Assembly (NCBI GenBank): GCA_963682025.1
Contig: OY821519.1
Location: forward strand, 98,081,085 to 98,145,084
Length of the DNA: 64,000 nt
Direction: 5' to 3'
DNA from: Cordilura impudica
Lineage: Eukaryota; Arthropoda; Insecta; Diptera; Scathophagidae
In this document: positions 1 through 63,334 of the stretch, in pieces
How the letters are laid out: each line of letters opens with the position of its first letter
Numbering within the stretch: the first letter of the stretch is position 1
The notes under the pieces: generated by a model
Seen by the model: only the letters and a program-made list of their open reading frames with translations
Database searches by the model: none
What the model was told of the DNA's origin: nothing
Program-made: the position numbers and the translations under genes

Positions 1-1680
1 TTATCGACAGAAATTCTCTTCAGCTATTGATAGCAAGAGAAAATGGAAAGAGATCCGTGAAATAGGTATTGGGAAAAGAAATCCTTGCACTGTTGATTCT
101 GATGTGGACGTTGATAAGTTTGTCGAAATCCAAGTGAATAGACCAACTGAAAATCAGTACGAAAAAATTCATACTGTGCCTATTGAGAACTGTTTTTATT
201 TTCGAAGTATTACATCAATTAAGTCAAATGCTGTGGGCTTAGATGAAATTAATCCAAGATTTTTAAAAATTGTCGTTCCTAAACTTCATACCTATTCCAA
301 AGAATAACAGCGACTTCCGACCTATTGCGATACTACCATTTCTATCCAAGGTTATGAAATCTTATGTACGGGCAAATGAATGAGTATTTTAAGAATCAAC
401 ATCTCGTTACGGATAGACAATCTTGGTTTAGACAGGACAGAAGCTGCATTACGGTTTTGATCGATGTAGTGGAAGAAATTAGATCAAAATTGGATAAGAA
501 TATGGTATCATTTCTTGTGCTTTTAGATCACAGTAAGGCCTTCGATACTGTTGATCACTCGATTCTACTCACTAAACTCGAGAAAATCTTTAATTTCTCA
601 AGTTCGGCTAATAAACTTATTTCCTCTTACCTTATTAATCGTAAACAAGTGGTTTCTTTAAATGGAGTGACTTCTAAAGCAGCGGATGTTGACAGAGGTG
701 TGCCTATTCTATTCTTGGTCCATTGCTCTTCTGTATGTATATTAACGATTTGCTTGAGGTTCTGAATTACTGTGGCGTACAAATGTATGCTGATGACGTA
801 CAGTTGTACTTAAGCAGCAGAATAGAAAATGTTCAACATTGTACTGACTGTATTAATAGTGACTTGGATAATATACATAAATGGGCATGTACAAATGGCT
901 TATGTATAAACCCTGACAAATCAAAATGTATTTTCATTTCAAGAAGTAATAAAAAAACACTGAATGCCAATATTTTTCTACATAATAACAACTCAAGAAT
1001 CGGCTTTGTTCAATCATCATCGAACTTGGGATTCACATTTAATGCTGAACTATCTTGGTATAACCATATAAATACATCAGCTGGTAAAGTTCATGGGATG
1101 TTGAGAAACTTGTGGGCTGTGCAATCATCGACGCCGTTTGAAATAAGAATGCTTTTGGCAAAAACCTATTTAATACCAGTTCTACTGTGCGGGTGTGAAA
1201 TATTTGCAAATTGCGACACTATTGACTTTAATCGCCTCGAGGTCACATATAATAGTATAGCCAGATACGTTTTCAACAGAGGTAGACGAGATAGTATATC
1301 ATCATATTCATACCAGTTACAGAATACAAGTTTTGAAGATTTACTAAAATATAAAAGCCTTTTAATGATGCATAAGATTATTTATCTGAGGAACCCAGAA
1401 TATCTTTTTAACAAAATTATTTTTGCACAATCGCCTCGTGGAAGAAATTTGATATCACAAAAATACTAATATCTAATGTCTACAAGACAATTTTTCAACT
1501 ACACTACGTGTCTTTGGAACAATGTACCATCATATATCCAAGTACAAAGCAAACAGGAACTTAAAAAAATTTTTCTTTGAATCTATGTTAAATGTCAACT
1601 TTATTATGTTCATTATTATGTTAATTTTTATGATTAATTAATAAAGTAATTATTTTTATTAATCTCGAAATTTACTGTAA
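1..1680 (+). mobile_element. Non-LTR retrotransposon remnant (Jockey/CR1 type), RT region
   Basis: Three broken pieces of one reverse transcriptase are visible. Near 215-275 is the RT entry motif SNAVGLDEINPRFLK. At 505-565 is the palm segment LLDHSKAFDTVDHS with its catalytic Asp. At 782-812 is the catalytic YADDVQLYLS. Thumb and C-terminal sequence follow to a stop at 1467-1469. The element is cut by the window start, has an internal deletion near 300 and a frameshift near 700-730, so it is dead. A TTGAA-repeat tail at 2022-2042 may be its true 3' end, with a Helitron fragment lying between. The clade (Jockey, CR1 or Kiri-like) is inferred from motif style only. Confidence 0.8.
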
Positions 1681-2042: not shown

Positions 2043-2493
2043 AAATCTTTTGTGCTTTCTAATTAATTTACAGCTTTTAATACTTCTACGTCAATGTGTC
2101 GCTTGTGAATCAGTAGAATAGAAAAATTACGATTACAAAGAGTATCTTCTTACAGCCTGCAAGTTTAGTTAGGCGCGCTGCGAGACTCTCGACACTCAAA
2201 AGGTTATTTGTTGCAAATTTTTCCACCTCCTAAAATCTGCCGCCCTAGGCAGTGGCACAGTTCGCACAAAATTAAAAATGGTGTAAATCGGGCGCCATTG
2301 TGCTAAGATATGACCTAACATATCGAGTCACCTCAAAAAAATTTTAAATATTCAGTATATTTCTTTGAATAATTTAGTATCAAGTTTATCAAATCATTTA
2401 CTTTTTCAAATATTTTGTTTACCTATTTGTTATAAATAGTGCAATAAGTCAAAGATTCGGCATAGCCGAATTTAACACTCTTACTTGTTTTTT

Positions 2494-3207
2494 TTTATAC
2501 CCTATACCACTATGTGGTCAGGGAATAATGACTTTGTGCTGATGTTTGTAACTAGCAAAAATATTTGACGTAGACTCATTTATTATACCGATCGACTCAG
2601 AATCACTTTCTGAGTCGATTTAGCGATGTCCGTCCGTCCGTCCTTCCGTCTCTGTGTCCACAAATGTTAACATATTTTGATGAAATTTGATATGAAAGCT
2701 TAAATTGGTCGTAGCATGAATACTACTAAAATTGGTGAAAATGACACCTATGAAATCTACTTAAATTGTCATAACATCCAAAATATCATAAGGTCATGGT
2801 CAAATTGGGTTTGTGTATGTTTATTACATCCATTTATCAGTAGTACAAAAATAAACCCTATAGGAGAATTCTTACTCATAGCCCCCATATGAACGTGATT
2901 CCCGATCTTCACTTAAATCTATCAAAAAACTAAAATATTGCACAGATTTTTCTTAAATTTGGTTTGTATATATTTTTGCAAAAAATAAGTGACCTTGCAA
3001 ATATAGTCAGGATCGGTCCATTTTTTGACCTAGCCCCATATAAGTATAGCATCTGATATGAACTTTTTCATATCCGAAGGCAAACAAATTAATATCAATA
3101 CCACTCAAATTTGGCTTATGCTTCTTTTCTTTATCTAATTAGTTGGACCTAAGAGATAGGGTATCGTATAGTCGGTCCAGACGAATTATAATTTTCTTAC
3201 CTGTTTT
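2494..3207 (-). mobile_element. mini-me/INE-like GTCY repeat, copy 1
   Basis: Reads from the reverse of GGTATAGGGTATAAA (2494) through a GTCCGTCCGTCC microsatellite (about 2627-2645) to the reverse of AAGAAAATTATA with TCGTATAGTCGG (3165-3207). The same roughly 750-base unit recurs at 4905, 22230, 28284 and 50270. (GTCY)n cores are the hallmark of dipteran mini-me elements, generally linked to INE-1/Helentron-type repeats. Noncoding. Confidence 0.75.
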
Positions 3208-4783: not shown

Positions 4784-4904
4784 AAAAGAGAGTTAAATAA
4801 GTCATGTTAAACCAATATGTTTTTCGCGTTTTTCCGGTAGATAGTCACATTTTTGCATTCAAATATTGTTAATTTGTATTTTAAAATTAACATTGCTTGT
4901 TAAT

Positions 4905-5681
4905 AACAAGTAAGAAAATTATAGTCGGTCTAGACCGCCTATACGATACCCTATAGCATGCGTTTAGAGACCCTATCTCTCAGGCCCAACTAACTGGATA
5001 TAGAAAATAAGCATAAACAAAATTTGAGTGGGATTTTTTATTAATTTTTTTGGCTGCAGATATGAAAAAGTTCATATCGGATGCTATATCTATATGGGGA
5101 CGAGGCCCAAAAATGGACCGATCCTGGCCATGTTTAGTAAAGTCTCTTGTATTTTGCAAAAATATATACAAACAAAATTTGAGAAGAATCAGTGGAACAT
5201 ATTTGTTTTTTGACAGATTTAAGTGAAGATCGGGAAGCAGCTGTATAAGAGTTGTCCCATAGGGATCATTTTTGGACTACTCATTAATGGATGTCATAAA
5301 CGCATATAAACCCAATTTGAATAAGATCTATATAACAATTTGGATCTTATGGCAATTTATGTAGATTCCATAGGGGTCATTTGTATTGGGGCTAGGTCTG
5401 AACATGGACCGATACTCACCAATTTCAATAGCGTTCATCATATGGCCGATAGAAGCTCTTATACCAAATTTCATCAAAATATATTCATATTTGCGACCTG
5501 CAGTTTGATTACAAGGTTTACATGGACACACAGACGGACGGACGGACGGACATCGTTAAATCGAATCAGACAGTGATTCTGATTTCATAGGTATAATTAA
5601 AGATGGGTCTATGTCAAATATTTTTGGTAGTTACAAACAGCAGTCATTATACCCAAACCACATAGAGGTATAGGGTATAAA
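4905..5681 (+). mobile_element. mini-me/INE-like GTCY repeat, copy 2
   Basis: Runs from AACAAGTAAGAAAATTATAG to CATAGAGGTATAGGGTATAA with the ACGGACGGACGG core near 5532-5550. It is close to the copies at 22230 and 50270 over its whole length. Short open frames inside recur between copies only because the DNA is similar. Confidence 0.8.
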
Positions 5682-5759
5682 AATAGTTTTATCGTTTCTC
5701 AATAAATCAAGAAGGGGCGTTTTTTAGACCGTCCACACTAGTGTGCAGAGGATATATAA

Positions 5760-11559: not shown

Positions 11560-14014
11560 TTCACCATTCGAGTCAAACAACTCTCGAAGGCCGTTACGTT
11601 GAGCTTTTCGCCGCGCATAACCACTTAGCGCAACTAGTTAATGAACCAACGCACATTCCGTGCATTGAAGGGCAAAGACAAAATACTCTCGATCTTTTTC
11701 TAACTTCACACCCAGACAAGTATGAAGTGAAAACACTTGCACCTCTTGGTAATTCGGATCACTGTACCATTTCCGCTTCTTTTTCGTACTCTGTACTTCA
11801 CAGTGTTTCAACACCAGCTATGAAACGCTCAGTTTTCATTTACGAAAAGGCTCGTTGGGCCGAGCTCAACGATTTCTTCAAGCATTTCAACTGGAAACTT
11901 TGTTTCCTAGATAATAATGTTGATGCTGCTGCGATAATGGTGGAAAAATAATAGTGCTTGGTATGAGATTATTCATTCCATCAAAGCGCATTTCGGCTAA
12001 ACCTAATCAAAAATCTTGGTTTAACCAGACTTGCAGAGATGCAGTCAGATCCAGAGAGGAAGCATTCAGACTTTGGAGCGAAAATAAAAATTCCGTCACT
12101 GAACTGCTACGCAAACAGGCGAGAAATCAATGTGCCAAAGTACTAAGGCGCGAAAAGTTTATTCACGGTCAGCGTCTTCGTGCTAAAGTTCTTTCTGCTC
12201 CTCGGGGCAGCAAGAGCTTTTGGTCATTTGTTAAAAGAGTAAAGAATAATGCTAGTTCTGCTATCCCAACTCTTATAATGAATGACCAAATATTCACTGA
12301 CCCGGTTGATAAGACTAACCTTTTAGCTGAACTTTTTGCAAAAAATTCATTTTTGCCGGATAGCGATCAACCACTGCCCGAACTCGAAAGAGTATCTTGT
12401 ACTATGCCTAAAATATTCTTCCGAGCACGTGCAGTTAAAAGGGTTCTTTCGGATCTCAACATTAACAAGTCTCCGGGACCGGATGGTATACCAGCACTGG
12501 TGCTGAAACAGTGCTCTTCGACGCTAGCCAGTCCATTGGCCAACCTTTTCAGCCTTTCGTATCATTCGGGAGTCTTTTCCTCTTGCTGGAAGGTTGCTAA
12601 TGTCCAGCCAATCCCTAAAAAGGGTGCGGCTAATAACCCTGAAAATTACCGTCCAATTGCAATCTGCTCTGCGCTCTCAAAGGTGATGGAGAGCATGATC
12701 AATTTCCACCTTGTGAACTACCTAGAGGCCAACTCACTTCTTAATGATCGACAGTATGGCTTCCGTAGAAATCGTACCACGGGAGACCTGTTAGCTCTAC
12801 TCTCTGAGCGCTGGAGTCGATCCATTCGCAATTTTGGCGAAAGTAAAGTGGTTGCTCTGGATATTTCCAAGGTATTCGACCGTGTATGGCACGGTGCATT
12901 GATATCAAAGCTTATTGCATTTGGGGTCGGTAATGACTTATCTCGATTTATATCGAGTTTTCTCAGAGACCGAACAATACGTGTTGTTATTGATGGGGTC
13001 TCATCTAATGAGTTTCAGCTTAATTCAGGGGTACCCCAAGGTTCCGTTCTTTCTCCTTCTCTTTTCCTTATCTTTCTGAACGACCTTCTTGGCCAAACTT
13101 TTAACTCTATATACTCTTTCGCAGATGACAGCAGCATTTGTCATTCATTTTCCTTTAATGAATGACACACTCAATCAAGACCTCTTAACAATCTCCGAGT
13201 GGGGTAAAACGAAAAGGGTTGATTTTAATGCGCTGAAGACTCAATGTTGTATGTTGACCCATAGGGCCATGGAACCAACAATGTCATCTGTATATATGGG
13301 TGGTATAGGTATTGAGGAATCGGATACTCTTGATGTTTTGGGCATGAGAATTCAATGTGATGTTCGTTGGAACGAGCATGTTTTTCAAGTGTCGAAAGAA
13401 GCATTCAAGTGTCTTGGTTTTCTAAAACGGTGTAGAAATTACTTCACTCCTTCTGATCTCCTTAAAATCTATACCACTTACATCCGACCGAAAATGGAAT
13501 ACAACTGCCATATATGAGCAGGGGCTTCGAAGTCTATTTTGGAGCTACTGGACCGTGTGCAAAGGAGGGCGTTGGCGCTCATCAATGATAGTAGGGTATC
13601 CAATTCTATTGATTCATTGGAACACCGTCGGAATGTGGGTTGTGTAGCACTGTTCTATAGATATTACCATGGGAAATGTTCTTCTGAGATTAGCGAACTT
13701 ATTCCAAGTGCCCGAGTTTCGGTTCGCTCTACCCGCTTCTCTAGTAGATCACATCCGTTTGTAGTCTATTGTCCAGTTGACCGCACAACGCATTACAGAG
13801 AGAATTCGTTTATCAGTCGAACTAGCCGTATGTGGAATAAACTCCCCGCAGAGGTCTTTCCTGACAGTTATAATCTAATAAAATTTAAGTCAAATATCCA
13901 TAAACTCTACTCCCTCTCTCCTCCTTCCCATAACCTATTTTCCTTAAATAAACACAATGCACTGCATTTGTAGGGGGCATCCCCTGAGTGTTGGTTAACA
14001 AAAAAAAAAAAAAA
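11560..14014 (+). mobile_element. Non-LTR retrotransposon, 5'-truncated, endonuclease end plus RT
   Basis: Begins inside the endonuclease C-terminus (LDLFLTSHPDKY, then LGNSDHCTISASF). RT follows: NKSPGPDGIPALVLKQ, VANVQPIPKKG, ENYRPIAICSALSKV, VALDISKVFDRVWH (catalytic Asp), NSGVPQGSVLSPSLF and SFADDSS (FADD in place of YADD). The tail region reads LLDRVQRRALALIND and SRTSRMWNKLPAEVFPDSYN, with a stop at 13971-13973. A poly(A) run follows at 14000-14014. Lesions: a frameshift near 11950, another near 13150, and TGA in place of a Trp codon at 13515-13517. Otherwise well preserved, so a fairly recent insertion of a Jockey/CR1-group element. Confidence 0.85.
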
Positions 14015-15484: not shown

Positions 15485-15493
15485 TGATATCGG

Positions 15494-16554
15494 CGTCTGC
15501 GGAAAATTTCCCGAAAACAATTTCCCAAATACAATTGCCCGAAAACAATTGCCCGAAAAAACAATTCCCCGAAAAACAATTCCCCGAAAACAATTTCCCG
15601 AAAACAATTTCCCGAAATTACAATTTCCCGAAATTACAATTTCCCTATTTTTAGTTTACAACTTCCCATATATTCTTGATTTCCCCCATAAAAAAAACTT
15701 GCTGCATACGATTTCTTGAAAAAACAATTTCCCGAGTATACGACTTCTCGAAAAAAAAAAACAATTCCCCCACCCCGCGCCGCGCCCTTCCTCTTCCACC
15801 CTCCCTCGTCATCCGGACCTATTTATTGGAGTGTCATACGCTTATTTTTTCATTGTGACTTTGAACACTTCGGTATTCAGACTTCCCGACGGATAACGCT
15901 CACTCCATAACATCATGCCCATGCAGTAGCTGCTACGGAATCGTTACCATCTTGCATATCGAAGTTTTTTAGTTATTTGGGTTGTAATACTCAGTTACTA
16001 TGCCACTCGAATTCCTGGATAGCGAAAAAGTTAAACCGAGGTTGCTTTTGAATGGTTTCTTGTATCATGACGACGGTCAGTCCGTTGATAGCGTTTATTG
16101 GCGTTGTATCCTTTATCGAGGAAAACATTGTACCGGTAGGGTCATAAAAATCACAGTGCCGAAGCGGCTTTCGTTGCTAAAGAAAAAATCGTTAATGAGC
16201 TGAAAGATCTTGCCCGGACCACTACACCAAGAGGTCATGAACTGATTGCTCGCGCTTCGGCCGGAATTTCTGATGATATTGTTTCGGAAATGCCATCAAC
16301 AAGCTCTTTGAAGAAATAGTAATTTCGGGATATTGTAGTTTCGGGAAATTGTGTTCGGGAAATTGTATTTCGGGAAATTGTAATTTAGGGAAATTGTAAT
16401 TTCGGGAAATTGTGTTCGGGAAATTGTAATTTCGAGAAATTGTTATTTCGGGAAATTGTGTTCGGGATATTGTAATTTCGGGAAATTGTTTTCGGGAAAT
16501 TCTTTTCGGGAAATTGTTTTCGGGAAATTGTTTTCGGGAAATTTTCCGCAAATC
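15494..16554 (+). mobile_element. FLYWCH foldback element, copy 1
   Basis: Exact 9-base target duplication TGATATCGG (15485-15493, 16555-16563). Ends TCTGCGGAAAATTTCCCG and, inverted, GATTTGCGGAAAATTTCCCG. The left arm is an array of 14-16-base units of TTTCCCGAAA(TT)ACAA type (about 15510-15650). The right arm is the same array inverted (about 16320-16550). Between them are a conserved noncoding leader and a FLYWCH reading frame from ATG 16000. The duplication size suits Mutator-like elements; no transposase is present. Confidence 0.85.
16000..16203 (+). pseudogene. FLYWCH zinc-finger frame, internally deleted
   Basis: Starts MPLEFLDSEKVKPRLL and keeps the FLYWCH core GFLYHDDGQ, VYWRCILYRG and HCTGRVI. 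It then lacks about 35 bases relative to the intact copy at 56224-56499, so the HNH zinc ligands are lost and the frame shifts. The remainder is still recognisable in another frame to about 16318. Confidence 0.75.
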
Positions 16555-16973
16555 TGATATCGGTCATGTTTCAACCTAGAGAAGAATTGACTTAAGTCGT
16601 AAACTATTCACTGTTCTCACTGATCTTTTTCTTTAATTGATAAGTAGGCTTTTTTCAACTTATTTCTTTACTCTGCCTCGTTTCGTTTTAATTTTACCAC
16701 CACGTGTTGATTTCTGTTTTTGCACAAACAGTGTTTCAATACAAGCCTCAATGTATTAAAGTTTTTGTATAAAGATTTATTTTTATAAGTTGAACTTTTT
16801 TTTTACTTTTTACACTTGGGACCAGGACCCCATGACGTGGCCATGGCAGGATCGCCATGTAATGTTTATTACTCTTGTATTTTTAAAATATTTCTATCCC
16901 GTTGAAATTAAATAACTGAGTGATTCATGTTAAGGCTCCGAAGAGCTATTCTATTAGTATCTAAAGTACAATT

Positions 16974-19840
16974 GACGACGTTGGAGCCAGAGTGAGATAA
17001 ATAAAATAATATTATTACACAATGACATAAAAAACTCATAATTCTTCCATGCCACACTTATGTAATTGCTCTTCAGTGCTTTCCTTCCTGAGAAATCGCA
17101 ATATCTCACTATAGAATTAGTGCGGTCTGCAAAGTAAAGGCATGCCATACTGATCTAAGTAATGAAGTGCACTTAGATCATTATGGTCCCAATTTTATAA
17201 GAGTTGTTACCGTTTATGGAAAACCAAAGTAATCTAAGTGCAATAAAGAAACAATGCATTATCGTATTATTACAAATTTTTTTACATCATATCTACGTTT
17301 ATATATTATTATTCAACAAAACTGAATATTACATTTCTGCATATTTTTTAAACTGGCAACGACAGCCAACTACGTCAAAAAAAAATTCAAAATCATTTTG
17401 ATTTACGCTTGCGATTATCTATTGTCTTATTCTTAAATATTTTAATTGAAAAAGTGTTACGCTGGAATTGTGAATATTATGACATTACAATCTTCATTTC
17501 GGTCATCTCCATCAACTTCAACTACGAATGGAGATTTTCAAGTGATTATTCTTCTTACATTCCAGAGAAAAAAAAAAGAAAGTTCCACAAAATTAGAAAA
17601 CAATGATGGTATGTATGTATGTATGTGCTGCTTCTGTGCTTCTGGAGCGGGTTACAGCTGATGCTATTATTTATAGAAAATGAAGAAGTCAGAGCAAATC
17701 AAGAGGGTCCTATTGGTATTTTGGGGGAAATAGACAATCCAGATTTCGACGAACGTGTCAGAGGAAGAAAAAGAGTTCGAAATTTCGACAATTGGGCCAA
17801 AAATATAAGGAAGGGAAAAAGAACAGCAGGCAAAGAATATACCAATGTACGAGGTAATGTTGTGCCGGCCAAACAATTAACACCAGTTGCATGTAAGTGT
17901 AGGTTCAAATGCAGTGAGCAGGTTTCATCTGAAAACCAAAAAGCAGCACACGAAATAGTTTAGCGGCTCACTTCATGGGACGCTCAAACAAAATGGCTGT
18001 GCAGCGTCGTAAAGATTTTAAAACCAAAACGACGTAAGGAGAGACAACCTGCTCAAAATCCTAGCCGCATAAATTATGTACGCCAATTAATGCTATTTGA
18101 TAAATGAGTATGCAAAAGTTTCTTTTTAAAAGTCATGCAAATATCTAACAAGAGATTAGATTATGCATTAAGTTATAAAAAATCTGTTTCTGGAATTGCG
18201 GAAAGGGACAAGAGAGGACAACATGTACCTTCTAACAAGCTATCTGATGAAAGGTTGACATGGATTAAGGACCATATTAATAGTTTCTCAAAATATGTAA
18301 GTCACTATGGAAAACGACGATCAACCCGCCAATATTTACGCCCAGACTTTTCAATGAACAAAAGTATGAACTTTTTAAAGCAAAAATGCCTACGTCAAAA
18401 CATTTACAACCGAGTTTAATTTACACTTTTATATACCTAAGGCAGATACTTGTAAAACCTGTGATATGCTCGATATCCCAATAAAATCTGAAGAAGACCT
18501 ATAAAAATGCATAGATATAATAGTGCAAAAAGATGAGCATATTAAACTTGTAGGCGAAGTACGAAACATATTAAATGACTGTGAAGGTAAAGTGAAAACT
18601 GATGAATCTTTATTAGTAGCTACTTTTGACCTTGAAAGAACCCCGCCTCTTCCTTATTTGAACACTGGAGAAGTTTATTATTTAAGACAACTGCAAATGC
18701 TTAATTTTGGGATTCATGCTTATACAAAGGAGAAAAAATCTTAATTCATGGCCAGAACATTGTGGGGCTAGAGGCTCTCAAGAAATTATGCACTCAATGC
18801 ACTACTTTCTAGAAGATTCCGTGCCAGACACCGTCAAATCTCTATGTTTTTTTAGCGACTGTTGCTCTGGTCAACAGAAACTGGAATGTTTTGCACTTGA
18901 TGATGTTTCTGCTTAATAAATCGCCATATCTAGAAACGATCACCATACACTATCTCGTCAGTGGCCATACTTACCTGCCTAACGATACCGACTTCTCTTT
19001 TATAAATCGGGAACAAAAAAAAAGTCTAATATCTATACACCAGAAGATTGGATGAAACTCGTCCGTGACTGCAGAAAGCAAAAACCCTTTAAAGTACGAG
19101 ATATGCAAAATAAGTTCCTTGATTTCGAAAGCCTCACAGAACTGTTTAAAGAGTATCAGATTATATTAAGAGAACGCGCGAAAATTCCAAGATGCGAAAG
19201 ATAAAGTTTTGTAAAGATTTAAGTTTAATCAATTACAATGATAATTACACGGAAACATATGAAACGGTTGATCTGAAACCAAATGATATGGATTCCGAAA
19301 CTTTTTTTTAACCCTGAAGAATTATACACCGGAAAAAGCCCCCACAAACAGACTAATACCGTATAAAAAATGCAAGATATAAGAAAAATTCTAAAATTCG
19401 TGCCTCCCATTCATCATCACTTTTACTTGACATTACCGCATGCTCCTAGAAGAAGTGGCAATCAGGAAGCACTAGATGATGAAAACTTATTGCCTGCTGT
19501 GTTAGGTGAAAATTAAGATGTGTTTTATCTTATGATATCAAAGTACATTGTTTTCCCTTACAAAAACCTACATTTTTAATATATTTTTCAAATTTGTGTA
19601 ATGCCATATTGATCTAAGTAATTTGTTCTTCGCAAAAATAGGAATATTTGCTTTATTAAATAAACTATATAGATAACACTTATTCCTAATATATTTCATA
19701 CTCATCAGAGGTACATTTAACAAAAAAAAAAAATAATAATAAAACCCCCATCGGTATCTCACAAAACCACGTAACTCGTTTCCTTAATTTTCTCAGAAAT
19801 TTACTTTTGTGCCGTAGATCAGTCTGGCTCCAACGCCGTC
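16974..19840 (+). mobile_element. DNA transposon S-A: Cys-rich transposase-like gene, inverted ends, AATT duplication (possibly Sola-like)
   Basis: The left end GACGACGTTGGAGCCAGAGT (16974) is matched at the right end by the inverse of GACGGCGTTGGAGCCAGACT (19821-19840). AATT flanks both sides (16970-16973, 19841-19844). The only long coding content is the decayed gene at 17690-19516. Length 2867 bases. The related element at 33054-37241 has the same plan with ATAT flanks. Sola transposons are described with 4-base duplications and DDD transposases; the assignment is an inference that needs a database search. Confidence 0.75.
17690..19516 (+). pseudogene. Transposase-like Cys-rich protein (DUF7869-type family), decayed, in element S-A
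   Basis: Order of motifs: RGRKRVRNFDNWAKNIRK (about 17760), VACKCRFKC (17890), SHYGKRRSTRQYL (18300), IPKADTCKTCDMLDIP (18440), ATFDLERTPPLP (18620), FFSDCCSGQQ (18850), SGHTYLPNDTDFSF (18960), IYTPEDWMKLVRDCRKQKP (19040) and RKILKFVPPIHHHFY (19385), then a stop at 19514-19516. This is the layout of an abundant family of uncharacterised insect proteins. The Asp of ATFDLE and of SDCCSGQ are candidate catalytic residues; that role is inferred. Stops and frameshifts near 17960, 18115, 18420, 18730 and 18916 inactivate it. Confidence 0.7.
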
Positions 19841-21138
19841 AATTATTTGCTTAGCTTGCAAATTCACATACGGATAAACTAACCTATAATAATACTTTTG
19901 TGGAAGTGCAAGCAAGTCATTTCACAACGTTTGGGTTTGGTTACTATTACTATCACTACAGGAAATATGTTTTGGCTACTTTTTTGGACGCAGAAGAGGA
20001 ATTCAATAATGTCCAAATATCATAAAATCGTGAAATACCTAGAGAAAACAGACATGGATCCACGAAGAATCCTATGTGTGAGCGACATGCTGCAAAGCAC
20101 ACTCCTCTTCCTCGAGAATTGAGGATGGGTAGTGAGGAAGGTCTTTATAAGAGGAATTTACATCTTCTCTCTTATTGAACGTTCTATTCAATGAAATCCT
20201 CCTATACTTTGGCGAAACGTTGTGCCGATGACGTTGTGCTTCTGGTCAAGGGTACATTTGTTATGTGGAGGTTAACCCTCTTAAAGTGACTAAAACTAAG
20301 ATACCAGAGTTTGAGAGTTTTCGTACTGGCACTCTCGAAATTTGAAAAATATTTGGGCTCGTTTAAATCGATTTTATCCAAAAAATGAGGTTATGAGGTT
20401 ATGGTTTTACGCTGGTACTTTATTTTTATATAATCAGTTGAATCACTTCTGAACAGTATCAGTCTATTAATAAAAATTATCCGGTGTACAAATTATTAGT
20501 TAAAAGGGACACTTTAATAACCTTCAACGTAAGAATTCAGAATTTCTCAAGTGCAAACGACAATTGCTTGAAATGTTGGCAATATTTTGGCATAAAATTA
20601 AATCCGTTAACTACATCTTCCAAATTTGAAACCAACACGTCACTTGTCATTGTCACTATAGCAGAAATATTAAAACACCCTACTGTGGATGAAAAAGTTT
20701 GGCTTTCTGAACTCGAGAAGGTATAGTGGTAGGCCTGACTCGGCACGACCGGAGCCATTTGATCGACAGCATAGGTGGGGCAAGAGGTTATGCTGAATAG
20801 CATACCTTTATATATATTCATCAACAGCACGATATCAAGGGTGGTTCTCCGTTGAAAGGAGTCTTGTCTAGAACAAAGTTATTGAGGACACAACACAAAT
20901 TCTCCGATAAGTGGGCGCAATACAGATTGATAGGGAAACTGATTTTATTTCACCGGTGACGGTCAGAATGTCTTCCAGGAAAGACAGGATGGACGTACTT
21001 CCCTTCTTCGATACTGATGGTGAGAACAAGGATAGGGTCAGGAATCAGGGAATACTTAGGGAACTTGAATTTCAGATGTATCGTAGGCTTCCTAATAAAT
21101 ATAGTGCTCTTCAAGTCCAGATTCATGTAATTCACTTA

Positions 21139-21639: not shown

Positions 21640-22229
21640 AAACACTAAAAAAAATATATAGGAGTTCTTATAGGACTTATATAATAGGGACTCTGGACAC
21701 TGCATGATAGGGCGGGTGACCAAAATCAAAGGAGTTCTAGAAGCCGATTTATGTAGGAGCTGTATGGACGTGTACGAGGAGTAGTTAGTTCATAGGACTG
21801 AAGAAACGACACCATGGATATCATTGATAATCTGGGCCGCATAGTAGATGTTCCACTGGGTGATCTTGCGAAATTCATACGAAAATCTAAACGGTTCAGG
21901 GCGCGAACATAGCGGAAAATCTTATTTCCTCTACTATTAAATCTTTGTCAAAATCCTTTCTATCTTTCTTCTAAAGATTATCATAATAGGCCATATGGCC
22001 TCTCACTTTCGAGCATGCTATCCACCTAAATAATCATTTTTCATTGCTTCCAAAACAACAACGTGGATGTGATTTGAAGTAACTTCTAATGTTATTATGA
22101 AACCTAAGTTATTATGAAAATCTACAGGTTCAACTTTTCACGTTAGTAGCCAAATTAATATGTTAAATTGAAAATTTGTATCGAGAATCAAAAAAAAAAA
22201 AAAAAAAAAAATATATTTATATAAAAGAA

Positions 22230-23039
22230 AACAAGTAAGAAAATTATAGTCGGTCGAGACCGACTATACGATACCCTATACCATGCGTTTAGAGACCCTA
22301 TCTCTCAGGCCCAACTAACTGGATATAGAAAATAAGCATAAACAAAATTTGAGTGGGATTTTTATTAAGTTTTTCGGCTGCAGATATGAAAAAGTTCATA
22401 TCGGATGCCATATCTGTATGGGGACTAGCCCCAAAAATGGACCGATCCTGATAATGTTTGGGAAAGTCTCTTGTATTTTGCAAAAATATATACAAACAAA
22501 ATTTGAGAAGAATCAGTGCAATATTTTTTTTGATAGATTTAAGTGAAGATCGGGAAGCAGCTCCATATGGGGCCTATGCCTAAGAGTTGTCCAATAGGGA
22601 TCATTTTTGGACTACTGATTAATGGATGTAATACATACATACAAACCCAATTTGACTAAGATTTGTATGATAATTTGGATCTTATGGCAATATATGTTGA
22701 TTTCATAGGGGTCATTTGTATGGGGGCTAGGTCTGAACATGGACCGATTCTCACCAATTTCAATAGCGTTCATCCCATGGCCGATGAAAGATCAAGTACC
22801 AAATTTCATCAAAATATATTCATATTTGCGACCTGCAGTTTGATTACAAGCTTTACATGGACACACAGACGGACGGACGGACGGACGGACGGACGGACGG
22901 ACATCGTTAAATCGAATCAGATAGTGATTCTGATTCGATCGGTATAATTAAAGATGGGTGTAGGTCAAATATTTTTGGTTGTTACAAACAGCAGCACAAA
23001 GTCATTATACCCAAACCACATAGTGGTATAGGGTATAAA
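22230..23039 (+). mobile_element. mini-me/INE-like GTCY repeat, copy 4 (longest)
   Basis: Starts AACAAGTAAGAAAATTATAG and ends ACATAGTGGTATAGGGTATA. The (ACGG)n array near 22868-22905 is the longest of the copies. It follows a 30-base poly(A) at 22190. Best-preserved representative of the family here. Confidence 0.8.
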
Positions 23040-23559
23040 TATCCAGTCACTTAAGTGGACTCAGATTTTCTTGATTTGGACATTAGTCGTGAATATTCTT
23101 TCTGATCCTGCATATTAAACCACTAATATTTGGAAATTCCAGAAACGAATTTAGGACTAAAAAATCGGTTGTGCTAAATTCCAAAACTCGGCGAAGGCTA
23201 AAAGAGGGTAGACGAACATGCCAAAGATTTGAAAGAAAAAGACGAATAAATACAAACGGTTATGAGTTAAAGAGACAGGTTTTGGGACAATATCACTTTT
23301 ATATGAATCAAATTAAACTGAGCCGAATTTTTGGTACCCTCCACATCGGTTTTACGTTTACATTAACAACAATTTGATAATTTAATAAGCTTAATACTAA
23401 ATTATTACAACAAACATACTGAATTTTTTACAATTTTTAGAGGTGTCTTCATCTTTTTAGACTTATCTCTGCACTATGATGGCCGATTTACCCCATTTTC
23501 AATACAACGTGCTCGAGATACAGACAAAGAATATGTCTTAACTTTACGTAGGTAAAAGG

Positions 23560-27908: not shown

Positions 27909-28283
27909 ATATTTACTTTTACTTTATATGGCCATTTTGTTGCTCCTGGTGACTTCAAAGAAGATTGGGCCGCCCCTTTCTACATTTCCCATTGATGAGT
28001 TCTTCCTTGCTTATATAGTCGGCCGCCGGTATGTCAATGCCATCGTTGTTCATTAACGTTTCAGGAACAAATTCTCTACTTGCGGAATTGTTTTTTTATC
28101 GCCTGCGAAAAGCTTGGAATAGTGCTCTTCATCAACCTGAGTATTACTTGTGTGTCGGTGACAAGATTTTAATTATTATCTCTATAGGAACAGGTCCCAC
28201 ATTTAAAGCCTTCAATTTCCGGGTTTCATTCCTGTTGTGATGCATCTCAATTTCTTCTAACTCATGCCTTTCTTGTTATTATT
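27909..28283. other. Unidentified spacer between two opposing mini-me copies
   Basis: Less AT-rich than its neighbours (GGGCCGCCCCTTTC, GTCGGCCGCCGGTATG) and readable in short stretches on both strands, but no family was recognised. It may be a fragment of another transposon. Confidence 0.3.
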
Positions 28284-28952
28284 TTTATACCCTGTACCAC
28301 TATGTGGTTTGGGTATAATGACTTTGTGCTGCTGTTTGTAACTACCAAAAATATTTGACCTAGACCCATCTTTTATTATACCGATCGAATCAGAATCACT
28401 TTCTGATTCGATTTAACGATGTCCGTCCGTCTGTCCGTCCGTCCGTCCGTCTGTGTGTCCATGTAAAGCTTGTAATCAAACTGCAGGTCGCAAATATGAA
28501 TATGTTTTGATGAAATTTAGTATATAAGCTTTTATCGGCCATGGGATGAACGCTATTGAAATTGGTGAGAATCGGTCCATGTTCAGACCTAGCCCCCATA
28601 CAAATGACCCCTATGAAATCAACATAAATTGTCATAAGATCCAAATTATCATATAAATCTTAGTCAAATTGGGTTTGTATGTGTATATTAAATCCATTAA
28701 TCAGTAGTCCAAAAATGATCCCTATGGGACAACTCTAAGTCATAGGCCCCATATAGAGCTGCTTCCCGATCTTCACTTAAATCTATCCAAAAACAAAAAT
28801 ATTGCACTGATTCTTCTCAAATTTTGTTTGTATATATTTTTGCAAAATACAGAGACGTTACCAAACATAGTTGGGCCTGAGAGATAGGGTCTCTAAACGC
28901 ATTGTATAGGGTATCGTGTAGTCGGTCTAGACCGACTATAATTTTCTTACTT
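28284..28952 (-). mobile_element. mini-me/INE-like GTCY repeat, copy 5
   Basis: Inverted relative to the 27751 fragment: TTTATACCCTGTACCACTAT at the left, GTCCGTCC array at about 28419-28455, GTCGGTCTAGACCGACTATA near the right end. A piece around the GCTGCAGATATGAAA segment is missing. Confidence 0.8.
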
Positions 28953-29223
28953 TTTTTTTGCATTTTATGAACACAGCGCTATGAGATCTTTCGATTGATG
29001 TATAAAATAAGGTTGCTCTTAATTCAGAATATATAAAAAAAATACACTTTCGAGAAAAGTATTTCATGCAAAGATTTGCGTTTAGTGCAAAAAATTAATT
29101 CCAAAAAATTTTGGTTGTTACCTAACTAATTAATACCTATCCCCTTTTTATCCCTTAACAAAACTTTTGCAAAAACTTTTTTCTTCTATTCAAGCAATGT
29201 TTCCTTAAATACTTTTCATTGCA

Positions 29224-35800: not shown

Positions 35801-38800
35801 CCAGTGTCATGCATGCGAAAAAGGTAAAGAAACCCAAAATGAAGATTATCTGGCCCACAATACAATCTGTATTACAAATTCCATCAAGTGATGTAAGCGC
35901 AATGTACTACACCCGAAAATTATGTGCATACAATTTAACCATATACAACGCTGCTACACCAAACGATGCTTTCTGCTATTTTTGGACAGAAACTGAAGGC
36001 AAAATAGGAAGTAATGAAATTGGTTCGTGCTTGTATAAGTATTTGCATCAACTTTCACCGGAAATAAAAGAAGTATCCTTTTCGGTGGCCAAAATAGAAA
36101 CAAAAATATTTCCATATTATTTCTCCATATGATTCAAAGTTTAAATTTGGATGTAATTGTACACAAATTTCATGAAAGTGGACACAGTTACATGGAAGTT
36201 GGTAGCATGCACAGTGCTATCGAAAAGCAAAAGAAGAATGTTCCAGTATATACGATTCAAGACTGGCTAACTATATTCAGACTCGCACGGTACAAGAGAC
36301 TTAAAAGCAAAGGAAATCCTTATAATATAACCCAAATGCGGTATACTGATTTTCTGGATTAGTCAAATTTATCGGAGATTATAAAAAACAAAAATTTGGA
36401 CGAAAACAGAGATAAAGTGAACTGGTTGAAAGTAAAATCTTTTAGGTACCAAAAGATTAAACCTGGTGTGATGGAGTACAAGTATGACCACAATGAAACA
36501 TATAAAGAAATACGTGTTTTTGGTAAAGGTCGGCCCATAGATTTGAAAGAAGTAAACATCAAAATGGTGTATAAAAGCAGTCTTCCTATAAGTATCGAAA
36601 AGAACAAAGATTTACTTAATAAAAACAAGCAAAACTACCACAAATATGGCCCCAGAACCCGATATAAATGATGATTCGGAATCAGATCAAGATTAATAAA
36701 TTTAAAATGAAAATCACAAACAAGCTATTTTCATAAAAAAAACCCACGTCCATAAAAAAATATTTTTTAATGCAAAAAGGCCTATGTCCAAGATTCATTT
36801 TGTTTTTGTATAAAAAATCATGTGAGTCCGATCACAGGGGAGATGTGTAAACATCTGGTAATAAATAAAATACAGAAAACAGCGACACAAAGGTTATTTC
36901 ATATAATAATTTTTTCACCAAACAATCATAAGTCATACCGATTTGTCTTAATGGTCACATCTTACGCGTAAGATGTGACTCTCGCTGTTTTTGTGATTGT
37001 ATTGTGAAATAGAAATTTACCCCCTGCGCGTATAGATTTTACACATCAAAAAGTTGAATAAATTAAATTGAATACCATTTTTTGGTTTCATCTTATTTAT
37101 AAATGTTTTTACTATCAGATTTGTATATCCAATTTCAGATTAAAACTCCTTAATGATTTTTTCAGCGGCCATAAACTTTAAATATTCAATAACTCAGAAA
37201 CATAATTATGTGACTTGAGATCTTTTGGCAGGATACCGACGATATAAGTTTTTTATTACGTTTTTATTAAATAGAAAAAATCTTAATCCAATAATATATA
37301 TATATTCTGGATGCACATAATAAGCGAAGTGGAAATGCTGATCACGGTAAGCTAAGCTGTTTGTTTAAAAAAGCAGATTGGTATTTAAATCCATCACGGA
37401 GTGATCTAAATGTCATTTCCCCTCATCCGATCGATCTGAAACTTGCTCCGTACACTTGCTGTGAAAAAAAAGATGAACTTCGACTCAGTCACGCACAGTC
37501 ATGGAGAGATTTAAAATGGAATTCCCCTCATCCAATCAATCTGAAACTTGGTCGATATACTCATTGTAAAGAAAGATTAATTTCGACATAGTCACACACA
37601 GTCACGCATATTCACACAGAGTCACGGAGTGATTTAAAATCCATTTCCCCTTATCCGATCGATCTGAAACTTGGTCGATAAACTTGCTGTGAAAAAAGTT
37701 TAACTTTGACATAGTCACGCACAGTCACGCATAGGCACGCACAGTCACGTAGAGATTAAAACCTCACTTCCCCTCATCCGATCGATCTGAAACTTTGTCC
37801 ATAGACTTATTGTGGCCAAAGATTAATTTTAAAATAGTCAAGCAAAATCACTCGCATTCACGGGGAGATTCAAAACTCATAAGCATAAGGAAAGAAAGAG
37901 TTTTAATAAAACCTTTGTTTTTATGGGTGAGATTTTTTAAAAAATAAGTTTTCTCTACAAAGCACCTTTTCTTAAAAAAGACTTTTTCTTAGTTACTTCT
38001 AACAAAAAAGGAACTTTTCATAAAAAAGTACTTTTTCTTACAAAAAATTTTCTTAAGAAATTACATTTTCTTAAAAAAGATTTTTTTCTTTAAAAGTACA
38101 TATTCTTAAAAAATTACCTTTTCTTAAATAAGTAAATTTTCTTAGAAAAGTACATTTAAATAAATAAGTACATTTTGATAACAAAGTACCTCTTCATAAA
38201 AAAGTTCCTTTTCTAAATTTTCCAAAAAAAATGTATTTTCTTCAAATGTACCTTTTTCTTTAATAATTAAATTCTCTTCAAAAAGAACCTTTCCTTAAAA
38301 AAATACCTCTTCATACAAATGTACCTCCCCTAAAATAGTAAATTGTCTTCAAAAAAAAGTGAATTTTCATAATAAAACGCATTTTCATAAAAAAGTACCT
38401 ATTCTAAAAAAAGTATTTTTTCTTAAAAAGTACCCAGTCTTAAAAAGCCTTTTCTTTAAAACAGTACCCTTCTGAACAGATTAACTTTTCTTAAAAAAGA
38501 ATCTTTTTAATAAATAACTTTTTAAAATAGTACATTTTCTTTTAAAAAAATGTACCTTTTCTTAAGAAAAATTATTTTTCTTAAAAAGTACCTATTCTTA
38601 AACAAGTAAATTTTCTTAAAAAAGTACCTTTTCATAAATAGTAAAATTTCATGAAAAAAGTACGTTTTCTAAAGTAAGTACCTATCCTAAAAAATTATCT
38701 TTTCTTAGAAAGGACATTTTCACAAAAAAAGTACCTCTCTTATAAAAATTACTATTCTTTAAAAATTAAATATACTTCAAGAAGGAAATTTTCTTAAAAA

Positions 38801-41800
38801 AGTTCCTTTTCATAACAAACCACATCTTCATTAAAAAGTGCACTTTCTTAATAAAATTGATACCTATCCTTAAAAAGTGCTGTTTTAAAAAAGTTACATT
38901 TTCTTTAAAAAAAAGTACCTTTCTGAACAAAGTAACTTTCCTTAAAAAGTATATTTTCTAAAAAAGTACCTTTTCCAAGGAGTACCTTATACCTTCCGAT
39001 CAATCTGAAACTTGGTCCATACACTTGCTGTGAAAAAAAGATGAACTTCGACTCAGTCACACACATCCGCATGGTCACGCACAGTCACGGAGATATTTAA
39101 AATGGAATTCCCCTCATCCAATCAATCTGAAACTTGGTCGATATACTCATTGTAAAGAAAGATTAACTTCGACATGGTCACACACAGTCACGCATATTCA
39201 CACAGAGTCACGGAGTGATTTAAAATCCAATTCCCCTTATCCGATCGATCTGAAACTTGGTCGATAAACTTGCTGTGAAAAAAGTTTAACTTTGACATCA
39301 TCATCCGATCGATCTGAAACTTTGTCCATAGACTTATTGTGGCCAAAGATTAATTTTAAGATAGTCGCACACAATCACGCATAGTCACACACAATCAAGG
39401 AGTGATTTAAACCCCATTTCCCCTCATCCGATCGATCTGAAACTTTGTCCATAGACTTGTTATGGCCAAAGATTAATTTTAAAATAGTCAAGCAAAGTCA
39501 CTCGCAGTCACGGGGAGATTCAAAACTCATAAGCATAAGGAAAGAAAGAGTTTTAATAAAAACTTTGTTTTTATTGGTGAGATTATTTAAAAAATTAGTT
39601 TTCTCTACAAAGCACCTTTTTTAAAAAAGTACTTTTTCTTAGTAACTTTTAACAAACCAGGAACTTTTCATAAAAAAGTACTTTTTCTTACAAAAAATTT
39701 TCTTAAAAAATTACCTTTTCTTAAAAAAGATTTTTTCTTTAAAAGTACATATTCTTAAAAAAGTTCCTTTTCTTAAATATGTAAATTTTCTTGAAAAAGT
39801 ACATTTAAACAAATAAGCACATTTTCATAACAAAGTACGTTTTCTTAATAAACTGAGTTTTCTGAAAAAGTAACTCTTCCTAAAAAGTACATATTCTTAA
39901 AAAAGTACCTTTTCATAAAAAAGTTCCTTTTCTAGAAAGTACCTTTTCCTAAAAAAATGTATTTTCTTCAAATGTACCTTTTCTTTAATAATTTAATTCT
40001 CTTCGCAAAGTACCTTTCCTTAAAAAAATATTTTACCATCCCCTAAAATAGTAAATTTTCTTTAAAAAAGTGACTTTTCATAATAAAACGCATTTTCATA
40101 AAAAAGTACCTATTCTAAAAAAAAGTATTTTTGCTTAAAAAGTACCCCGTCTTAACAAGCCTTTTCTTAAAAAAATTACCTTTCTGAACAAATTAAATTT
40201 TCTTAAAAAAGAATCTTTTTAATAAATAACTTTTTTTAAAAGAGTACCTTTTTTAAAAAAAAATTACCTTTCATAAGAAAAATTATTTTTCTTAAAAAGT
40301 ACCTATTCTTAAACAAGTAAATTTTCTTAAAAAAGTACCTTTTCATAAATAGTAAAATTTCATGAAAAAATTACGTTTTCTAAAGTACCTATCCTAAAAA
40401 ATTATCTTTTCTTAGAAAGGACATTTTCACAAAAAAAGTACCTCTCTTATAAAAATTACTATTCTTTAAAAATTAAACATACTTCAAGAAGGAAATTTTC
40501 TTAAAAAAATATTCTTAAAAAATTTCATTTTCATAACAAACCAAATCTTCATTAAAAAGTGCACTTTCTTAATAAAATTGATACCTATCCTTAAAAAGTG
40601 CCTTTTTAAAAAAGTTACATTTTCTTTTAAAAAAAGTACCTTTCTGAACAAAGTAAATTTCCTTAAAAAGTACCTTTTCTAAAAAAGTACCTTTTCCAAA
40701 GAGTACCTTATATTCTCTTTAAAAAGTAACTTTTCTAAAAAAAGTAACTTGTCCTAAAAAAAGTGCCTTTTAGAACAGAGTATTTAAATTTATCTAAATA
40801 GATATAATGGGTCACGAGACATAGATGAGAACTTAATAAAACTCTTGAAAAAATATTATTTTTTTATGAGGTTGTTTTTTACATTTTGTACGTAGTTTTT
40901 AATATTACTGCTGTTATAATCGTTGTTGTTGTAGCATTAATAATTTCCTAATTTATTTACGCTCATCTCTGACTCACTGACTATCTGACCCTGAAACATT
41001 GTATCAGCGTATTCTTAAAAGGTACTTTTTCTTAAAAATGTACGTTTCAATAAAAAACTAGTTTACATTAAAAAAGAAATTTTTTTAAAAAAGTACCTTT
41101 TTTAAAAAAGTACCTTTTTAAAATAAGTACCTTTCCTTGAAACAAATACCTTTTCTTAAAAAGTAAATTTTCTTAAAAAAGTACCTCTCTTAAAATATTT
41201 ACATCAAAAAGAAAATTTTCTTTAAAAAGTTCCTTTTCGCAACAAAACCACATTTTCATAAAAATGTACCTTAAATAAACAAAAGTAAATACATTTTCTA
41301 TAAAAAGTTCGCTTTCTTAAATAAGTACCTATCATTAAAAAGTGTCTTCCCTTAAAAAGTGCCTTTTAAAAAACAATTACCTTTTCTTTAAAAAAGTACC
41401 TTTCTGAAAAAAGTATCTTTTCTAAAAAAAAGTACCTTTTCTTATAAAAGAAACATTTTTTTTAAAAAACCTTTTTCTTAAAAAAGCACATTTTCTTTAA
41501 AAAGTACCTTTTCATAAAAAAGTTCCTTTTCTTAAGAAGTAAATTTTCTTTAAAAAGAAAGTAACCTTATTTAAAAATTTACCTTTTCGTAAAAAAATAC
41601 CAAAGAAGTACCTTTTCTTAAATAGTTAATTTTTTTAATTACAATTTCTTGAGAAAGTATCGTTTCTAAAAAAAAGATGTTTTCTTAAAAAGTTCATTTT
41701 CCTTTTAAAATAAGTACCTTTTCTTAAAAAAGTAATTTTTCATAAAAAGTACCATTTCTTAAAAAATTAAATTTTCTTAATAAAGAATTTACCTTGTCGT

Positions 41801-47800: not shown

Positions 47801-50800
47801 ATATATATGATGAGTTATGAACTGATTTAAAAAAGCCCAATGACAAGCAGGCTCTGGTTTGAAGCTAGTGGAAACATCCGGTTTTGAGCCTCTACTCTAA
47901 TTAAACACACTTTCAGCCTTATAACCTTTAAACAAATAACTTAATTCTTTAATGTTTATTATTTAATTTATAAATTTATAATGATTATTATTTAATTTTT
48001 TTGTTTTTTAATTAAAATTTTGACCTTTTCTAGAATGCCAGTCATTTTTCCAGGATTTTTCTGTATCTTTCGTGACCTTTTTTTGTACCTAGTACCTAAG
48101 CAGTTTTTTCGAAACTATTTTTCATTTTAAGCGGAGTCCTTAGTGGCCTTTAGTTGCAGAGCTGAGGGCAGTTTGGTACAATAATAACCCTGTTTGGTAC
48201 CACTCAATTGCCGATGTACTTATTGGCAACAGGCCAGGTCGACCCAGAAGAAAGAGAAGAATTCGTGTTTTCTTAAAAATGGAAGAAGTCGTTTTTAAAG
48301 ACACGCTTTGATTTATACATCTGTATTTATAGAGCCAGTGGTTATAAAAGAATTGCTCCTTTCACCACAAGAACAAATAGCTTGCCCGGCCAGAAACTTC
48401 TTTCGGAATTTTGTGCTCCTATGCACACGAAACTCTTCTTCTGCAACATTCATATCTAAATTTGATGTTTTATTTGCGTTAAATAATTTCTTAAAAACAA
48501 TTTTAACTAAAAATTTTCTAATGGAAATTTAAGTAACGTAACGTCACGTAACGTCACGTAACGTCGCGTCAGATGCTTAAGCTAGTAAAGAAGTCCAAGT
48601 CAAAACTCTCTGCTGTTTTTTGTAACGTAAAGCCAGCGTATTTTTTTTTTTTTAATTAATATAGTGCTACTTAATTACTACACACCTATAAGAACACATT
48701 TTAAAAAATTTGATTTTTTCATTACTTTCTTTAAAGTTTTTTCGTACAAATGTCACGTCACGCCAGATTGGAAATGCCCATATATAAACCAAATTTGAGA
48801 AAAAATCTTCGCAATATTTTTGTTTTTTGGCAGAAGATGGAAGCAGATTTATATGAGGGGCTATGACTAACAATTTTCCTATAGTTTCTTTTGGGACTAA
48901 TGTTTAATGGATGTAATAAGCACATAAAACCCCAGTTTGAGCGAAATCTATATGATAATTTAGATCTTCTAGGAATTTAAGTAGATAGTAGCTTATATAC
49001 CAAATTTCATCAAAATATATTCATATTTGCGACCTGTGGTTTGATTACAATGTTTACATGAACACACATACGCACGGACAGACGGACATCGCTAAATCGA
49101 CTCAGAAAGTTATTCTGACTTCAGAAAGTTATTCTGAGTCGATCGGTATAATAAAAGATGGGTCAAATATTTTTGGTAGTTACAAACTTCAGCACAAACT
49201 CATTATACCCTGACCACATAGTGCCTCTGCGGAAAATTTCCCGAAAACAATATCTCAAATACAATTGCCCGAAAAAACAATTCCCCGAAAGAACAATTCC
49301 CCGAAAACAATTTCCCGAAAACAATTTCCTGAAATTACAATTTCCCGAAAACAATTTCCCGAAATTACAACTTCGCTATTTTTAGTTTATAACTTCCCAT
49401 ATATTCTTGATTTCCCCCATAAAAAAAACTAGCTGCATACGATTTCTCGAAAAAACCATTTCCCGAGTAAACAACTTCTCGAAAAAACGATCCCCCCACA
49501 CCGCACCAAGGCCTTTCTCTTCCACCCTCCCTCGTCATCTGGACCTATTTATTGGAGTGTCTTACGCTCATTTTTTCATTGTGGCTTTGAACACTTCGGT
49601 ATTCAGACCTCCCGATGGACAACGCTCACTCCATCACATCCTGTCCATGCAGTAGCTGCTACGGAATCGTTACCACCTTGCATAGCGAAGTTTTTTAGTT
49701 ATTTGGGTTGTAATACTCAGTAACTATGCCACTCGAATTCGTGGATAGCGAAAATGGTTTCTTCCGTTGGTTCAGTCCGTTGATAGCGTTTATTGACGTT
49801 GTATCCTTTATCGAGGAAAACATTGTACCGGTAGGGTCATAACTTGCAACGATACTATAAAAAAAAGAGACTCTTCACAATCACAGTGCCGAAGCGGCTT
49901 TCGTTGCTAAAGAAAAAATCGTAAATGAGCTGAAAGATCTTGCCCGGACCACTACATCATGTGGTCATGAACTGATTGCTCGCGCTTCAGCGTGAATTTC
50001 TGATGGTTTTGTTTCGGAAATGCCATCAACAAGCTCTTTGAAGTTTCGGGAAATTATGCTCGGGAAATTGTATTTTGGGAAATTGTAAATTCGGAAAATT
50101 GTAATTTCGGAAAATTGTCTTCGGGAAATTGTAATTTCGGGAAATTGTCATTTCGGGAAATTGTGTTCGGGAAAATGTAATTTCGGGAAATTGTTTTCGG
50201 GAAATTCTTTTCGGGAAATTGTTTTTGGAAAATTTTCCGCAAATCCACATAGTGGTATAGGGTATAAAAAACAAGTAAGAAAATTATAGTCGGTCTAGAT
50301 ACCCTATACCATGCGTTTAGAGACCCTATCTCTTAGGCCCAACTAATTGGATATAGAAAATAAGCATAAACCAAATTTGAGTGGCATTTTTATAAATTTT
50401 TTTGGCTGCAGATATGAAAAAGTTCATATCGGATGCTAAGTCCATATGGGCACTAGGTCCAAAAATGGACCGATACTGACCATGCTTGGTAAAGTCTCTT
50501 GTATTTTGCGAAAATATATACAAACAAAATTTGAGATGAATCAGTGCAATATTTTTGTTTTTTGATAGATTTAAGTGAAGATCAGGAAGCAGCTCTATAT
50601 GGGACCGTTTTTGGACTATTCATTAATGGATGTAATAAACACATACAAACCCAATTTGACTAAGATCTATACAATTTGGATCTTATGGCAATTTATGTCG
50701 ATTTTACAGGGGTCATTTGTATGGGGCCTAGGTCTGAACATGGACCGATTCTCACTTATTTCAATAGCGTTCATCCCATGGCCGATGAAAGCTTATATAC

Positions 50801-62248: not shown

Positions 62249-63334
62249 CTCTGCAGAAAATTTTCCGAAAACAATTTCCGAAATACAATTTCCCGAAGAC
62301 AATTGCCCGAAAAAACAATTCCCCGAAAACAATTTCCCAAAATTACAATTTCCCGAAAATAATTTCCCAAAAACAATTTCCCAAAATTACAATTTCCCGA
62401 AAACAATTTCCCGAAATTACAATTTCCCTATTTTTAGTTTACAACTTCCCATATATTCTTGATTTCCCCCATAAAAAAATAAAAATTTCCCGAAAATACA
62501 ACTTGCTGCATACGATATCTCGAGAAAAAAAATTCCCGAATATACGACTTCTCAAAAAAACAATTCCCCCATCCCGCACCGCGCCCTTCCTCTTCCATCC
62601 TCCCTCGTCATCCGGACTTTTGGAGTGTCATACGCTTATTTCAGACCTCCCGACGGATAACGCTCATCCATCTCCATCATATCCTGTCCATGCAGTAGCT
62701 GCTACGGAATCGTTACCACCTTGCATAGCGAAGTTTTTTAGTTATTTGGGTTGTAATACACAGTTACAATGCCACTCGAATTCGTGAATAGCGAAAAAGG
62801 TAAACCGAGGTTGCTTTTGAATGGTTTCTTCCGTTGGTTCAGTCCGTTGATAGCGTTTATTGGCGTTGTATCCATTATCGAGGAAAACATTGTACCGGTA
62901 GGGTCATAACTTGCAACGATACTATAAAAAAAGAGACTTCACAATCACAGTGCCGAAGCGGGTTTCGTTGCTAAAGAAAAAAATCGATAATGAGCTGAAA
63001 GATCTTGCCCGGACCACTACATCAAGCGGTCATGAAGTGATTGCTCGCGCATCGGCCGGAATTTCTGATAGAATTGTTTCGGAAATGTCATCAACAAGCT
63101 CTTTGCAGAAATATTAATTTCGGGAAATTTTAATTTCGGGAAATTGTGTTTGGGAAATTGTAATATCGGGAAATTGCAAATTCGGGAAATTGTGTTCGGG
63201 AAATTGTAATATCGGGAAATTGCAATTTCGGGAAATTGTGTTCGGGAAATAGTAATTTCGGGAAATTGTTTTCGGGAAATTGTTTTCGGAAAATAGTTTT
63301 CGGGAAATTGTTTTCGGAAAATTTTCCGCAAATC
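62249..63334 (+). mobile_element. FLYWCH foldback element, copy 4
   Basis: Near-exact duplication AACGACTTC / AACGACTTA (62240-62248, 63335-63343). The left array is degraded (TTTTCCGAAAAC, CCCAAAATTACAA); the right inverted array runs about 63117-63330. The FLYWCH frame from ATG 62769 reads MPLEFVNSEKGKPRLLLNGF, then shifts at CTTCCGTTGGTTCAG. Confidence 0.82.

Follow-up and report, generated by a model that had tools for sequence, protein, structure and literature searches.

A decayed element with inverted ends and a DUF7869-family gene, a probable DNA transposon, in Cordilura impudica

The inverted ends and the gene between them

The window is the whole 64,000-nt stretch of Cordilura impudica contig OY821519.1 that was analysed (the tokens CCATANTGATCTAAGTAAT to TTTTCTTAAAAAAGTACA stand for sequence letters from it). 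Between positions 16970 and 19844 it contains a decayed gene of the DUF7869 family enclosed by two terminal inverted repeats (TIRs), each with the letters AATT directly outside it. The gene and the protein positions are described relative to P0001, a relative of 682 aa from Parnassius mnemosyne. From left to right the features are as follows.

16970–16973, no strand: left AATT, candidate 4-bp target-site duplication (TSD) or outermost TIR bases (sequence)
16974–16995, + strand: left TIR, 22 nt, 20/22 against the right end (sequence, shuffles)
17145–17163, + strand: left CCATANTGATCTAAGTAAT, candidate transposase-binding site (sequence; putative role)
17168–17186, − strand: inverted partial copy of CCATANTGATCTAAGTAAT, 3 mismatches (sequence)
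17446–19516, + strand: decayed DUF7869-family gene, predicted transposase, start uncertain (P0001 alignment)
17609–17676, + strand: probable 68-bp GT-AG intron (by eye)
17892–17900, + strand: CxC pair, P0001 C126 and C128, in the N-terminal part (conserved in alignment)
18111–18113, + strand: conserved Cys codon, P0001 C199 (alignment)
18451–18462, + strand: Cys codons of the DTCxxCD motif, P0001 C324 and C327 (alignment)
18628–18630, + strand: first putative catalytic Asp, P0001 D383, DLE motif, strand 1 of the fold (model and conservation)
18857–18859, + strand: second putative catalytic Asp, P0001 D462, SDxCxGQ motif, after strand 4 (model and conservation)
18984–18986, + strand: third putative catalytic Asp, P0001 D505, GHTYLPNDxDF, start of the last core helix (model and conservation)
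19604–19622, + strand: right CCATANTGATCTAAGTAAT (sequence)
19819–19840, − strand: right TIR, 22 nt (sequence, shuffles)
19841–19844, no strand: right AATT, candidate TSD or outermost TIR bases (sequence)

The two ends match inversely over 26 nt when AATT is counted in (16970–16995 against 19819–19844, 92% complementary), and at 20 of 22 bases when it is excluded. An 18-base TIR core matches at 17/18 positions between the ends; allowing up to three mismatches it occurs at only two places within the window, with 0.01 expected by chance. When the two flanks were dinucleotide-shuffled 300 times, a pair matching at 17/18 or better arose around the gene once, and one that also carried a 4-bp flanking duplication not at all. 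The element between the AATTs is 2,867 bp long with GACG..CGTC termini, and the bases beyond AATT on the two sides do not match. No repeat crosses either end in a self-comparison of the window (E ≤ 1e-8). The exact TIR core was also encountered in two stretches of viral contigs. In the 10 bases on either side, neither stretch has AATT next to the core and no more than three additional bases agree; they were therefore taken as chance.

Inside the ends, CCATANTGATCTAAGTAAT has two exact copies, at 17145 (+) and 19604 (+), and a third at 17168 (−) that differs at 3 positions, so that copies lie approximately 170–240 bases inside each end. At up to 4 mismatches the rest of the window holds only two sites, both with 4 mismatches and outside the element. 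Transposase-binding repeats are often located at such subterminal positions, and CCATANTGATCTAAGTAAT is a candidate binding site of this kind. The subterminal repeats support the boundaries of the element.

The DUF7869 gene is the sole gene recognised between the ends, from which it is separated by approximately 0.47 kb on the left and 0.32 kb on the right. It is broken into open pieces in the three + strand frames between 17.45 and 19.52 kb. In a frame-aware alignment P0001 extends over 17446–19513 with 522 of 656 residues identical, interrupted by three in-frame stops and 11 frame changes. The first 30 residues of P0001 align weakly, the tblastn match beginning at residue 31; the start is uncertain, and the stop is a TAA at 19514–19516. 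One of the frame changes, at 17605, is better read as an intron, probably the 68-bp GT-AG stretch 17609–17676 identified by eye, because its removal preserves the frame and agrees with P0001. Judged by these lesions the window copy of the gene is dead. The three putative catalytic Asp codons and the conserved cysteines that were checked are still present despite the decay.

A preliminary description of this locus had claimed 20-base inverted ends with an AATT duplication around a decayed gene. The gene and the ends are borne out by the alignment and by the TIR comparison, while the duplication becomes one of two readings: as AATT is a palindrome and one copy of the element was observed, a duplication and four extra TIR bases are indistinguishable.

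The DUF7869 family and its predicted fold

P0001 matches Pfam PF25273 (DUF7869) over residues 454–547, a stretch that takes in the second and third aspartates. Relatives numbered 71 in a first search and 82 in a profile search, and a search with a broader alignment gave at least 581 at E ≤ 1e-3. Among the matches listed, most are unnamed metagenome proteins and those with a name are mostly animal. The named sources include moths and butterflies (Parnassius, Spodoptera, Arctia), beetles, bees, wasps, a fly, thrips, a stick insect, molluscs, a fish (Coilia) and a sea cucumber (Holothuria). Two relatives, P0109 and P0119, bear bacterial metagenome-assembly names and are probably animal DNA in the sample. 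Of the DNA stretches that fitted a search pattern, 51 in prokaryote genomes and 108 in viral contigs, none proved to be a relative. When the window read-through was placed in a tree with 42 proteins picked from 137 (43 rows in all), the window copy joined four close Parnassius rows, P. mnemosyne P0001/P0002 and P. apollo P0003/P0004, with 97/97 support. It belongs to the same family as the Parnassius PF25273 proteins, with 80% identity to P0001, but is broken.

The labels among the matches listed are ‘uncharacterized’, ‘hypothetical’, ‘unnamed’ or ‘DUF7869’, with a few automatic ones (OTU, JmjC, RNA polymerase subunit). ‘Transposase’ does not occur among them, though the names are abbreviated and most rows are nameless. 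An OTU protease domain is also present in 8 of the 82 relatives (P0090, P0091, P0092, P0094, P0096, P0101, P0106 and P0122); in P0096 (994 aa) it appears, by eye, to precede the DUF7869 part. The rve integrase domain is absent from the matches listed, which cover 25 of 33 Pfam families, and was not used as a test. In the open-licence library searched no papers were found on DUF7869, on PF25273 or on AATT as a target site or TSD, nor any transposon paper with the motif letters GQNKN/GQNRN by title or start of the abstract.

The AlphaFold model contains an RNase H-like core. Structural alignment with a second aligner gives, as the first 50 matches listed, exclusively transposases or integrases of the DDE type. 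Three aspartates occupy the putative catalytic positions: they are kept in 106/106, 106/106 and 105/105 of the ungapped rows examined, and in the window copy, so that the third residue of the triad is Asp and the arrangement DDD rather than DDE. The likeness to Mos1 mariner transposase and to retroviral integrases is one of fold only, with approximately 4–13% identity in the listed alignments; mariner elements have TA targets and the present element AATT. No match was obtained in the PDB by sequence profile (E ≤ 1) or in a viral structure library (E ≤ 0.001). Because the predicted fold is RNase H-like, the DDD triad is invariant in the rows examined and a single gene lies between the TIRs, the reading of DUF7869 as a transposase family is well supported, at the level of prediction and conservation.

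Readings of the element

The locus is very probably a decayed, once autonomous, single-gene cut-and-paste DNA transposon encoding a DUF7869-family transposase with an RNase H-like DDD core. The Cys-containing N-terminal part may bind the 22-bp ends, and perhaps the CCATANTGATCTAAGTAAT subterminal repeats too, and two or more transposase subunits would pair the ends. The DDD core would then excise the element and join it to target DNA, where a 4-bp stagger at AATT followed by gap repair would most likely produce the duplication. The analysis shows the ends, the decayed gene, the conserved triad and a predicted fold; transposase activity, binding to the ends, the 4-bp stagger and a preference for AATT are inferred.

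Several results weigh against this interpretation. The window read-through scores 25.3 in Pfam, just below the cut-off of 26, and PF25273 is matched at E ≤ 1 by 37 of 54 relatives (the aligned subset of the 71 from the first search), leaving 17 without a match. A strict scan for the motif D.C.GQ misses 9 of 137 proteins; those inspected are fragments or have changed residues. For the full model Foldseek returned nothing at E ≤ 0.001, and for a shorter model three matches, Hermes (3.8e-4) and two NurA chains, in a list that also includes RNase HI, terminase nuclease, Argonaute and MutS chains. With a list so mixed, Foldseek alone fails to single out transposases. Finally, no second copy with the same ends is present within the window.

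The preliminary description had also read the family as a transposase, and had seen a hint of the Sola superfamily in the length of the duplication and in the DLE and SDxCxGQ motifs. The first claim is strongly supported by the predicted fold, the invariant triad in the rows examined and the solitary gene between the TIRs. The motifs do hold the first two putative catalytic aspartates, and membership in Sola is compatible with the features described for that superfamily. The Pfam search of the protein, which had been proposed as a check, names P0001 as DUF7869, but leaves the read-through under its cut-off and supplies no function.

That the element is a member of Sola, with Sola2 as the best guess and DUF7869 a Sola-type transposase domain unnamed in Pfam, has about an even chance of being correct. 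Sola elements are described as having a DDD transposase, a 4-bp TSD, a size of mostly 2–9 kb and TIRs of 11–1124 bp (in the account of PMC10741241). The DDD triad, the 2,867-bp length and the 22-bp TIR all fall within this description, and AATT may be a 4-bp TSD, though it is a single, palindromic instance. Dictyostelid Sola2 elements are described with TIRs of 12–13 bp or 21 bp and an AT-rich 4-bp TSD, AWWT in one host, which AATT fits (in the account of PMC3627910). Sola1–3 elements are reported in molluscs (in the account of PMC10294476), where DUF7869-type proteins also occur. However, the likeness is to the published description, the Pfam name is DUF7869 only, and 4-bp TSDs also occur in Ginger, piggyBac and Kolobok.

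Several other superfamilies were compared with the element through the cited accounts and rejected. Kolobok requires a TTAA target, and piggyBac has a TTAA target and CC..GG termini, against AATT and GACG..CGTC here (PMC9587614; for piggyBac also PMC10045372). The C/DxxH motif between the second D and the last acidic residue, given for Kolobok, hAT, P, MuDR and Dada (PMC9587614), occurs in just 2/105 rows and in differing columns. CACTA/EnSpm-Chapaev-Transib elements have C(2)C and H(3-4)H between the second D and the last E (PMC12730594); here CxxC is found in 0/105 rows and Hx3-4H in 4/105. Tc1/mariner elements duplicate TA (PMC10045372), and no TA is present at either junction. Ginger1/2 elements have TGTNR termini and a DDE triad with Glu, against a GACG (or AATT) start and Asp in 105/105 rows (PMC2836005). 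Ginger1 does resemble the element in its 4-bp TSD (here the candidate AATT), and an OTU protease is found in both families. Its CCGG/CCGT targets and Gypsy-type DDE integrase are both unlike anything seen in the element, and its OTU domain is C-terminal (PMC2836005), whereas in P0096 it apparently stands before the DUF7869 part. The occurrence of OTU in DUF7869-type relatives and in Ginger1 may indicate a shared accessory function.

It is possible, if doubtful, that DUF7869 represents a large transposase superfamily of insects, molluscs, a fish and an echinoderm that is distinct from Sola and from all named superfamilies. Its DDD signature would be WxE..(G/A)xRG / SDxCxGQN(R/K)N / GH(S/T)xxxxD, with one or more of its lineages AATT-specific.

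The role of AATT may also be read differently, as the outer end of a 26-bp inverted repeat with a duplication that is invisible or of another kind. This is rather unlikely. Since AATT is palindromic, both readings predict identical letters; two random 4-mers would match here with a chance of 0.006, and the AATT pair thus needs either a duplication or the longer repeat. Against the longer repeat, palindromic 4-bp targets are known, namely the TTAA of piggyBac and Kolobok (in the account of PMC9587614), and the bases further out are unmatched.

The TIRs may derive from a different element, non-autonomous or unrelated, with the DUF7869 gene carried inside it as a passenger or host gene; one copy is seen, and some relatives are gene models to which an OTU or JmjC domain is fused. 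This is improbable, as the gene itself carries the predicted transposase fold and triad, no other gene is recognised between the ends and it lies approximately 0.47 kb and 0.32 kb from them. Least probable is that the ends match by chance and that the true ends of a transposase-derived pseudogene lie elsewhere, for although the window is AT-rich and filled with repeats, the shuffles (1/300, and 0/300 with a 4-bp duplication) and the 0.01 expected core matches stand against it.

Neighbouring repeats and the meaning of the element

The window contains several other repeats. A foldback-like family of approximately 1.03–1.10 kb is found at 15493–16554, 49223–50248, 55957–57060 and 62250–63337, the first copy stopping near 16554, approximately 0.4 kb short of the element. 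Its arms are inverted arrays of a 14–16-bp minisatellite (AATTTCCCGAAAAC) and its ends lie near TGCGGAAAATTT..AAATTTTCCGCA. By eye, three of the four copies have a likely 8-bp duplication (TGATATCG, CACATAGT, AACGACTT). The copy at 49223–50248 is nested in another repeat, of which 22228–23043 and 50267–51032 carry a single CACATAGT at that point and so resemble empty sites. A dispersed repeat of approximately 0.7–0.8 kb with palindromic parts (GTCGGTCTAGACCGAC; CCACTATGTGG) occurs in at least five places (2480–3207, 4902–5684, 22228–23043, 28280–28958 and 50267–51032).

An AT-rich sequence of about 18 bp (TTTTCTTAAAAAAGTACA) is repeated in tandem in large arrays at 38004–38975, 39664–40771, 41012–41785 and 59947–61755, the unit being common to two distant parts of the window. 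Remains resembling retrotransposons without long terminal repeats are present at 693–1469 (+), 11924–13165 (+) and 59124–59894 (−), and consist of two reverse transcriptase open reading frames (PF00078) and one endonuclease-like frame (PF14529, just below its cut-off). No Rfam family matched the window at its gathering score.

As a kind of locus the element is ordinary, but it offers a likely function for a widespread unnamed family. Through this locus the DUF7869 domain is linked to a physical element that has ends of its own, and the predicted fold and triad point to a role for the domain. The element supplies an end sequence (GACGNCGTTGGAGCCAGA) for finding further copies and empty sites. 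DUF7869 genes treated as host genes without a known function could be re-annotated as transposons; should the family lie outside Sola, it would represent an unnamed superfamily in plain view.
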